From contig NZ_CP009520.1 in assembly GCF_000969905.1 (NCBI RefSeq), positions 2,356,001 through 2,420,000 of the forward strand: 64,000 bases of DNA. Direction: 5' to 3'. Position numbers and translations under genes: made by a program. This DNA is from Methanosarcina vacuolata Z-761 (GTDB lineage: Archaea; Halobacteriota; Methanosarcinia; Methanosarcinales; Methanosarcinaceae). Positions 17,972-62,535 of the stretch are shown here, one piece after another. Numbering within the stretch: the stretch's first letter is position 1; each line of letters opens with the position of its first letter. The notes under the pieces are model-generated. The model was not told the origin of the DNA. It saw only the letters and a list, made by a program, of their open reading frames with translations, and made no database searches.

Positions 17972-18018
17972 CGAATCTTTGATCAATTCCGAAAAAGCAA
18001 GTGCATTCATTTTATTTG
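17972..18018. repeat. Fragment related to the family 3 MITE-like element
   Basis: GATCAATTCCGAAAAAGC and its flanks match the internal part of the element at 62255-62371, but without inverted ends. This is probably a decayed remnant upstream of the MoxR operon. Confidence 0.5.
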
Positions 18019-34245: not shown

Positions 34246-35012
34246 TTGAATATTTGTAAATCCATTATTGGGGGAATTAGAATCACTTCTGAAATCGATT
34301 TTTCACAATTTTTTTGCTGGAACAAAGATTGTCCTGATTATGGAATTAATAATCAAGGAAATATAGTCCTTAAAGAAAGATATGGTAAAAGGAAAAATAT
34401 GGTAAAAACAACCATGCGCTTCTTAAATGTAAAACTTGTAAAAAATGTTTTAGTGAAACGAGAGATACAGTATTTTTCCAACTTAACACTCCTGAAAAAG
34501 AAATTCTAAAAACAATATATCTGATTCCCGAGAAAGGAGGAATTCGTGGACTTGCGAGAGCTACTGGACATAGTAACAGAAGATTTCTCCTTTTCCACCA
34601 CGAAGGAAAACGTAGTAAAGAAAAAGATAAAAAATTATGTAGTTGAAAATATTCAACGTATTATTTTTGGAGATCCTAAAAAAATATCTGAAATGCTTGG
34701 AGCTAATTCGGATGATTACATTGGTACTTCATATGTAGAAAGGATAAAGCTTACTATCAGGACATCTCTTGTAAGATTTGTAAGAAAAAAGGTGAATTTC
34801 AGTAAAATAATGAAGAAGCATACGAAAACATTTGATTTATTCCAAGCATGGATAACTTTATAAAACCTCACGACTCTCTAAAATTAAGAATAGACTCTGA
34901 AATAGAAAATGGTTACAAAGAACTCCAGCAATTGCAGAAGGAATAACAGATCGCATAACAGATCATATATGGAGTTTAAAGGAATTACTAATGTTTAGAG
35001 TTCCTGTTCAAT
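34246..35012 (+). pseudogene. Degenerate transposase (IS1-like, helix-turn-helix plus DDE remnant)
   Basis: The N-terminal zinc-finger-like part FFCWNKDCPDYGINNQGNIV is in one frame. After a short local duplication of ATATGGTAAAA the next frame carries LLKCKTCKKCFSETRDTVFF followed by GGIRGLARATGH. Further shifts separate the C-terminal TSYVERIKLTIRTSL, KKHTKTFDLFQAW and FIKPHDSLKLRI. At least three frameshifts, and the catalytic middle is missing. From memory the arrangement fits transposases annotated IS1-like in Methanosarcina. No intact terminal repeats were found. Confidence 0.7.
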
Positions 35013-58862: not shown

Positions 58863-60266
58863 TCAGGCAATCTGCTTTCTGAATAGGTTGCAGGAATTAA
58901 TTTTAATGTCGAGCAACTTTTCAATGTTCATTTTTGCAGCAATACCTTTTGCAGCGCCTGGTACTGACGTTATAACTCCGATATCTAGTTCCTCACGCAG
59001 CTCGCGCATAACGTGCTCGTCCACAAGGTCCATCTTGGCGACCCCGAGTTTTTTTGCGACGTACTCTTTTGCCTCGCCTATGCGCATATTTTTTGAGAAC
59101 TCCATCCTTGCAACAAGGTCACCTGCAGCCCTAATTCCAGTCATACCTGAAGCCATTATGTGGGAAATCGGCATACCCATCGGGTCGCCGACTCCTATCT
59201 ATATGCCGTCGACGCCTGCAATTTCGACCATCGCCTTGCTTGCTCTGGTAACCGCATCAATCGGAGGAGTTTCAAGCATTGGAATTCCGCCAACTCCCAT
59301 TCCCATATTTACGTGACAGGGGATCGGAGACGCTTCGACTGCAGCTTTGATGAAAGTAACTGCACGAGCAAGGTTCCAGGCTGAGGTCTTACTGGTATTG
59401 GTGTTGCATACTGGTCCGAAAACATTTGCTCCGGCTTTTGCAATAAGCGGAGCCTGTTCATGCGGCCATAAACCTGCGAGCCGCATTCCATCATACTCCA
59501 GTTCTCCGTGCATACCTAGCACCATCTCGCCAGCCATGCCTGCTTCAATGTACATATCAGGGAACTCTTTTCTAAGGGCCTGGATTGCATAAAGTGTGCC
59601 GTACATATCTCCATCGCCTGCCGCGCCGGTTGTATCAAAGTTAACGCCGTCAGCCCCGGAGGCAAAAAGTTTCTGCATGACCCAGACCGTGTCTCTGGTA
59701 AGGTGTTCGGCAGCGTGTTCCATGGATTCTTTTGCCTTATCAATCTTGAATAGCTTCATAAGGTCGCCAGGGTTCTCAAAAGGCCCATCAGGGGTGTAAT
59801 AAAGTCCCATATTGGGCATCGCCCCATAAAACAACGGAATGATCATGTTTTGCTGACAGACTTCCATTGCTTGACACTCGTTTGATACAACAGGTTTTAC
59901 CGGCTTGAAACTGTAATCAATGTGCCCGAGTTCCATCGTGTCGGCACCAAAAGCACGCTCGTGCATCATGCAGCCAACTAAACGGCTGGAAGGAATGCCA
60001 ACTCCACTGTTGCCCTGATCACCATCAAGCCTGATAGTACCAATGTCGTGTGTTACAGGAATTTCCATACCCTGTTCGACGCTCACAGCCTTGCCGGGCA
60101 TGGTAAGGATCTCTGCAAGCTTGTCCATTTCATTGGCGCTCAGGGTAGGGATCTCGCCAAGGTCGGCAGCGTTTGCAGTACCGGCTTCGATTTCCTCCAT
60201 TATTTTTTCTTTGGTAAGGAAGACACGTTTCCCGTCTCCCATTCTCAAAGCGTATTCGGTTGCCAT
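58863..60266 (-). CDS. mtbB: Dimethylamine methyltransferase MtbB (pyrrolysine protein)
   Basis: 467 residues with one in-frame amber codon at 59199-59201 (residue 356, pyrrolysine), between EIAGVDGI and IGVGDPMG. Length and Pyl356 match MtbB. It transfers a methyl group from dimethylamine to the Co(I) of MtbC. N-terminus [20 protein letters not shown] and [20 protein letters not shown] are family-typical. ATG follows AAAGGAGAATC. It lies between mtbC and the permease on minus. A naive call would split it into 355- and ~105-residue proteins. Confidence 0.96.
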
Positions 60267-60329: not shown

Positions 60330-60974
60330 TCATAGCAGCAGTTCTTTTGCTTTTGCCACGGCTTCGCTTGCGTTTTCAGCATAGCAGTCTGCACCGATTT
60401 TGTCAGCCCAGGACTGGGTTGCAGGGGCTCCGCCTACCATAACCTTTACTTTGCCTCTGAGCCCTTCTTCCTTGAGGAGTTCAATTACCTCCCTCTGCCC
60501 CTGAAGGGTCGTCGTCATAAGGGCGGAAATGCCGATCATATCAGCATTGACTTCCTTTGCCTTTTCTACGAAATTCCTTGTAGGCACATCCCTGCCAAGA
60601 TCATAAACTTCAAAACCTGAGGACTGGAGCATAGTAGAGACTATTGACTTGCCGATATCGTGGACGTCGCCCTCGACAGTTCCGTTTACGATAACCCCCA
60701 GTTTCTTTTCCTGTGTGCCTGCTGGCAAATCTTCTTCAAGCAGCTTTACCCCGGCAGTCATTGCGTCGGCTGCCATCATCACATGGGGCAGGAAAAGTTT
60801 CCCTCTCTCAAAAAGAGTTCCTACCTGGTTCATGCCTGACGAGAGCCCTTTTTCTATGATCTCTTCTGGGGGGAGCTTTAACTTCGCTTTTCCTACCGTT
60901 TCGATTACTTTTTCCTTTTTACAGGAGATTACCGCATCAGCAATCTCGAGGAGTAATCCTTCTGTATCTGCCAT
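60330..60974 (-). CDS. mtbC: Dimethylamine corrinoid protein MtbC
   Basis: 214 residues from ATG 60974 (ADTEGLLLEIADAV), the usual start; an in-frame ATG at 60989 adds five residues. Helical domain FLPHVMMAADAMTAGV, then the B12 motif GDVHDIGKS (Asp103, His105, Gly108) and ISALMTTTLQGQREV. First gene of mtbC-mtbB-permease. Paralogous to MtmC at 47136. A candidate TATA box lies at 61060-61074. Confidence 0.94.
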   Translation of the reverse strand: MADTEGLLLEIADAVISCKKEKVIETVGKAKLKLPPEEIIEKGLSSGMNQVGTLFERGKLFLPHVMMAADAMTAGVKLLEEDLPAGTQEKKLGVIVNGTVEGDVHDIGKSIVSTMLQSSGFEVYDLGRDVPTRNFVEKAKEVNADMIGISALMTTTLQGQREVIELLKEEGLRGKVKVMVGGAPATQSWADKIGADCYAENASEAVAKAKELLL

Positions 60975-61059
60975 TTTTTTCGGTCCCATTTTTATTTGGA
61001 AGTAGTTGACGTTTTTCTTTATGATTATTCGGAAGACGGTAAGTTAGTTCCTACTAATG

Positions 61060-61526: not shown

Positions 61527-62276
61527 ATGGAAGTAGAAAGTAGAAAAAAGATGAAAAAAACACATATGGGGCCAAAGAATACTTGGGAAGGCTTTTTTAA
61601 AGATAAGACACACGGAGGGCACAGATATTCGTCTGAGGAGTTTCTTGCTATGGAAGCCAGGGAAAAACTATTCCACCTCGACGGAGGCAAAACGCTGCTT
61701 GACTTCGGGTGTGGTTCTGCAGAACTCCTGACCTACTATGCTCCTGAATATGACCAGCTTTTAGGAGTAGACTTTTCCCCATCCATGCTTGGAGAAGCAA
61801 GTAAAAGAATCAGTCAAAGAAAATGTAATAATATTGACCTTATACTTGCTGACCATGAGACACTCTGGGAAAACCTTGACTCAAACTTTGATCGAATAAC
61901 TGCAGCCGGAGTGATTCAGTACTTAACGTTTCAAGAAATTGATGACTTTATTGCTAAGGCATCAGAGTATCTCAGTACAGACGGTAAAATAGTATTTTTT
62001 GACATACTGGACCCGCGATTATACCCATTGTGGAAACTAGGAGTATTTGCACCGAATGCAGGGCTTTTAAAAGCTTTGTACCGAGTAGGTTGCGATTTTC
62101 AGAGTTCAATATTGTCGGCCTTAAAAAACCGTCCGAGAAACATTTACGGTTTTACCCACAACCCTTACAAAATCCAGAAAATTGCGAACAAACACGATTT
62201 AGAGATGCGCTATATACAATCAATGTACTATGAATATAAGTATCATGCAATAATGGGTCGTGTCCCCGAATTATAG
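61527..62276 (+). CDS. Class I SAM-dependent methyltransferase, 3' end altered by MITE insertion
   Basis: 249 residues. The Rossmann motif I LLDFGCGSAELL (57-68) is followed by LGVDFSPSMLGEASKRI and VIQYLTFQEIDDFIAKASEY. ATG follows a GGGGGAAGAGGC site. The final residues MGRVPEL and the TAG stop are partly read from the family 3 element inserted at 62255. Without the element the gene would continue ATG TTT CGG ACT TAA, ending IMFRT. The core fold is intact, so the enzyme may still work; substrate unknown. Confidence 0.85.
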   Translation: MEVESRKKMKKTHMGPKNTWEGFFKDKTHGGHRYSSEEFLAMEAREKLFHLDGGKTLLDFGCGSAELLTYYAPEYDQLLGVDFSPSMLGEASKRISQRKCNNIDLILADHETLWENLDSNFDRITAAGVIQYLTFQEIDDFIAKASEYLSTDGKIVFFDILDPRLYPLWKLGVFAPNAGLLKALYRVGCDFQSSILSALKNRPRNIYGFTHNPYKIQKIANKHDLEMRYIQSMYYEYKYHAIMGRVPEL

Positions 62277-62371
62277 ATCAATTCCGAAAAAGCGAGTACA
62301 TCCCACGCATTTAATGAATATATTGAGAGACTCTTGCGCTTTCGGTTTTCAATGATTCAAACCCACGACCC
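62255..62371. mobile_element. MITE-like element, family 3 (117 bp, 6-bp target duplication) inserted in a gene end
   Basis: Ends GGGTCGTG and CACGACCC; flanks AATAAT (62249-62254) and AATAAT (62372-62377). Inverted similarity continues weakly inward (GAATTAT against GAATCAT). Internal sequence with GATCAATTCCGAAAAAGC also occurs at 17978. Non-coding. Confidence 0.85.
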
Positions 62372-62535
62372 AATAATGTTTCGGACTTAAAAGGATGAAC
62401 TGAAAAAGGCAAATGAATTCCTAAAAAGTGGAAGAAACTTTACCTTCTTATTCCAGCTTGCCTGCAGTACCCAGATTTTCCTGATTATGTATTATCTTCG
62501 GTTGTATCTCTTGACTCATGGCGACGACCTCGTTT

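Follow-up and report, generated by a model that had tools for sequence, protein, structure and literature searches.

A MITE of the IS1-family type has very probably inserted at the 3' end of a class I SAM-dependent methyltransferase gene and changed the C-terminus that this gene encodes, importing an amber codon that leads, in frame, back to the original gene end. The gene (61527-62276, + strand) lies in the window, that is, the whole stretch of 64,000 nucleotides that was analysed, and its ORF, Pfam match and orthologues define a frame of 249 codons followed by TAG; the product matches Methyltransf_25 (Pfam) at 4e-15, and the orthologues show 79-91% identity. Residues 1-243 are native and residues 244-249 (GRVPEL) are element-derived, the MITE (62256-62370, +; ends GGTCGTG/CACGACC) starting exactly at a codon boundary, right after codon 243 (Met243, ATG, 62253-62255). 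Read from the sequence, the present C-terminus is IMGRVPEL-TAG, and removal of the element together with one duplicate restores IMFRT-TAA, in agreement with an earlier sequence-only reading of this DNA. Remains of the native 3' end (ATA ATG TTT CGG ACT TAA, IMFRT-stop) still stand at 62373-62390 (+) and are identical or near-identical in orthologues. We propose that the last methyltransferase codons recently received a non-autonomous MITE of the IS1-family type, whose transposition would have given an 8-bp target duplication and swapped the C-terminal FRT-TAA for GRVPEL-TAG.

The presence of a small mobile element, already recognised in the sequence-only reading, is borne out by nine near-full copies in the 4.56-Mb genome (E 1e-38 to 1e-76), which is far beyond chance, and by exact 8-bp duplications at eight of these nine (CAATAATG, AAATATTA, AATTTTTA, CAAAAAAG, CAAAAATA, GAGAAAGG, GGATTTTG and TAATTTTA). 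The other copies fix the boundaries and set the length at 115 bp, in place of the 117 bp first given, in which each boundary was one base off; likewise, the true target-site duplication is not the 6-bp AATAAT previously described but the 8-bp CAATAATG, found on the left at 62248-62255 (+) and on the right at 62371-62378 (+), where the empty sites have a single copy of the stretch. The 115 bp hold no transposase frame, and the terminal inverted repeats comprise a perfect 7 bp (GGTCGTG), with matches at 15 of the 22 outer positions. Matches to the MITE were found in 23 of 31 Methanosarcina genomes, the highest number in a single genome being 28; an order-wide search outside Methanosarcina returned a single weak match, which falls in another genus of the same family, and none was found on the plasmids and viral contigs searched. 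One other copy in the same genome is identical to the MITE at all 115 bp; together with the intact duplications and a site that is empty in every other species examined, this makes the insertion look recent, as had been suggested. Two further observations concern the wider family: a 35-bp fragment at 17972-18006 (+) resembles the inner portion of the MITE's left end and is perhaps a decayed relative, and diverged MITE subfamilies at three loci have in common an inner motif like GATCAATTCCGAAAAAGC, with their other halves different.

To describe the site before insertion, we joined the two flanks with one duplication and used the result as an empty-site query. The 12 loci that matched this query best in other species aligned with it right through the junction, most of them gapless; upstream synteny was kept in the closest loci, and the downstream gene also matched in three. 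The orthologues end in IMFRT, IMYRT, IIFRT or IMSRI followed by TAA (IMFRT-TAA in most cases), and a paralogue of the methyltransferase in the same genome ends in TIMFRT. The sequence-only reading had predicted empty sites ending IMFRT in related strains, against orthologues naturally ending GRVPEL, and the comparison came out as it anticipated: such empty sites exist in other species, and no orthologue ends in GRVPEL. The converse view, in which GRVPEL is the native end and the IMFRT beyond the element is there by coincidence, found no support and is refuted by the empty sites, since the GRVPEL ending occurs in no orthologue and the flanks join across the junction at 12 loci of other species; we regard its probability as negligible.

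The ends of the MITE (GGTCGTGTCC), taken with the 8-bp duplications, point to the IS1 family. The genome contains two IS1-family elements of 1198 bp each, identical at all 1198 bases and both flanked by 8-bp duplications, whose second ORF matches DDE_Tnp_IS1 (PF03400) with 30.8 bits against a cut-off of 24.1, the transposase scoring below the NCBIfam IS1 equivalog cut-off and thus lying on a distant branch. The left end of the MITE matches the right end of this IS at 19 of 22 positions and the right end of the MITE matches the left end of the IS at 17 of 22; in 400 kb of the genome, both strands, a background score of 17 was reached once and 18 never. Judged by these ends and the 8-bp duplications, the resident 1198-bp element is likely the transposase source of the MITE. 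In a blastn comparison the two matched along about 25 bp at their ends and nowhere further inside, and no direct parent emerged; because the inner parts do not match, we rejected the MITE as a simple internal deletion of the 1198-bp IS and infer instead that it is cross-mobilised, that is, mobilised in trans by the resident IS1-family transposase. The resident element and the MITE share only ends of about 22 bp, which leaves room for a closer parent that has died out or was not sampled. IS1595 was rejected as the parent family, with PF12762 without a match in the genus, and a closer autonomous parent was also sought and rejected, the inner ends of the MITE being on none of the IS1-type loci. 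ISMhu11 is a subgroup name for archaeal IS1 elements that we do not use here. Elsewhere in the window, 34609-34860 (+) holds a piece of this IS1-family transposase (84 residues at 70% identity). One of the two IS1-family copies (genome 3860301-3861498) is embedded in, or borders, the transposase-like gene of another IS; the overlap between the two ORFs of this copy, near A-runs, is of the +1 type, a relative showing -1.

The claim that the element rewrote the stop codon proved right in part: the stop did change, and the description was incomplete in that the new stop is an ambiguous TAG, beyond which the frame returns to the native end. This amber codon (62274-62276, +) comes from the element and is also present in the identical sister copy; among 53 aligned MITE copies, TAG occupies the position in 14, and TTG in most of the others. 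The element and one duplication together measure 123 bp, or 41 codons, without an in-frame TAA or TGA, so the frame past TAG re-enters the old gene end: the continuation (62277-62390, +) runs for 37 codons, INSEKASTSHAFNEYIERLLRFRFSMIQTHDPIMFRT, to a TAA and regains PIMFRT-TAA. Of this continuation homologues keep only the last residues (IMFRT), the codons in between being element sequence, and a coding stretch past TAG was not found conserved in them. Shuffling leaves a given frame free of TAA and TGA in 21% of cases, and one length in three is a whole number of codons; taken alone, the in-frame return is nothing out of the ordinary.

Several features of the genome bear on how this TAG would be read. 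PylS (pylS) and tRNA-Pyl with anticodon CTA (pylT) are both encoded, and the neighbouring dimethylamine methyltransferase gene mtbB (58863-60266, - strand) carries an in-frame amber pyrrolysine codon at 59199-59201, after 355 codons; the NCBIfam model dimeth_PyL spans residues 1-466 of its product across the TAG (1044 bits), and this amber indicates, close to the methyltransferase gene, that the genome uses TAG as a sense codon. In a 400-kb genome sample used for stop-codon usage, TAG terminated 10 of 233 long ORFs, and in the window 2 of 40, namely mtbB, at its own pyrrolysine codon, and the SAM methyltransferase gene. UAG acts as both stop and sense codon in Methanosarcina (PMC2933860). As side observations, mtbB gets split by a standard ORF caller, with mtbC at 60330-60989 (-), and four of the sampled TAG-ended long ORFs stay open for a further 73-152 codons and are candidate pyrrolysine genes.

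Since TAG is both a stop and a pyrrolysine codon and the 41 codons lack in-frame TAA or TGA, two products are expected from the methyltransferase gene. TAG acting mostly as a stop would yield mainly a 249-residue protein ending in GRVPEL, and the reading of some TAG as pyrrolysine would yield a minor 287-residue protein ending in the original IMFRT. From the codons and the decoding genes, we consider the chances evenly balanced that pyrrolysine readthrough gives this second, longer methyltransferase product. A rival account, which comes close to an even chance in our estimate, has the MITE insertion in common and treats the outcome as plain truncation and replacement, with TAG an ordinary stop, the GRVPEL-ended protein made alone and the open frame due to chance, for which the shuffles just described give the expectation. 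It gains from the fact that some Methanosarcina genes, e.g. pylB, end in TAG as a plain terminator (PMC2933860), and from the retention by GRV of the conserved Arg at the FRT position, which may be enough for the short form to fold adequately. Against it, a reporter amber in M. acetivorans gave 20-30% full-length product (PMC2933860), and pyrrolysine readthrough requires no cis element (PMC8211752). Given PylS, tRNA-Pyl, mtbB, the rarity of TAG stops and these two publications (PMC2933860, PMC8211752), the two-product outcome is the natural expectation. It is possible, though less likely than not, that the TAG-supplying insertion made an ordinary gene a growth-dependent two-product gene, in which pyrrolysine readthrough would yield an extended isoform with the native end regained and the expanded code would buffer transposon damage.

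A frame kept by selection for in-frame fusion with host proteins, in the manner of Rickettsia palindromic elements, would explain the open continuation differently. Of 53 MITE copies, 24 have one particular frame open and 14 more have it interrupted by TAG alone, and third codon positions are slightly more variable than the others (0.171 vs 0.134/0.115); this codon-position effect was not significant (P about 0.06-0.07), so that selection on the open frame was rejected. Eight of the nine own-genome copies are intergenic, as are most copies elsewhere, and the MITE is therefore not a programmed in-frame inserter. No second in-frame insertion was confirmed among the other MITE copies, and the insertion at the methyltransferase gene accordingly looks like a chance event; we hold frame selection to be very improbable.

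The element belongs to a known class, that of IS1-family-type MITEs, and the overlooked amber adds interest to the case. Like MITEAba12, the Sulfolobus MITEs and other prokaryotic MITEs (PMC10969869), it is short, multicopy and without a transposase, with terminal inverted repeats and target duplications, and it is presumed that a related IS mobilises such MITEs in trans (PMC10969869); unlike the prokaryotic MITEs reviewed there, the present element lies within the end of a gene, to which it brings an amber codon. A description of this Methanosarcina MITE family was not found in the literature searched. The 1198-bp candidate partner conforms to the IS1 family in its DDE_Tnp_IS1 match, two overlapping ORFs, 8-bp duplications and related ends, whereas the MITE has only the terminal 22 bp or so in common with it. 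Rickettsia palindromic elements (PMC10969869) are likewise small, lie in frame within genes and add codons, but here only one intragenic in-frame copy was confirmed and frame selection was not significant. Neutral gain of pyrrolysine codons has been described for Thg1 of M. acetivorans and for transposases with an in-frame amber (PMC2933860); as with Thg1, the methyltransferase is a non-methylamine gene, in an archaeon with pyl genes, that came to contain an amber in frame, although this amber arrived with a mobile element, along with about 35 extra codons, and not by point mutation. The locus offers a clean case of a protein end altered by a MITE, with sister species showing the empty sites, and a natural readthrough reporter: two C-terminal peptides are predicted from a single insertion, and the adjacent mtbB is a gene in which TAG should be decoded as pyrrolysine. 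It also raises the question of whether genomes with an ambiguous amber are more tolerant of mobile elements carrying TAG than of elements carrying TAA or TGA.

Structure prediction with AlphaFold gave a mean pLDDT of 48 for the short protein and of 36 for the readthrough form, too poor for use; in the short-form model, at this low confidence, the last strand stops near residue 244. The best NCBIfam resemblance of 61527-62273 (+) was to the corrinoid protein-associated methyltransferase CpaM, far below the cut-off. The methyltransferase gene is divergent from the adjoining mtbC, an arrangement that is kept in close relatives.
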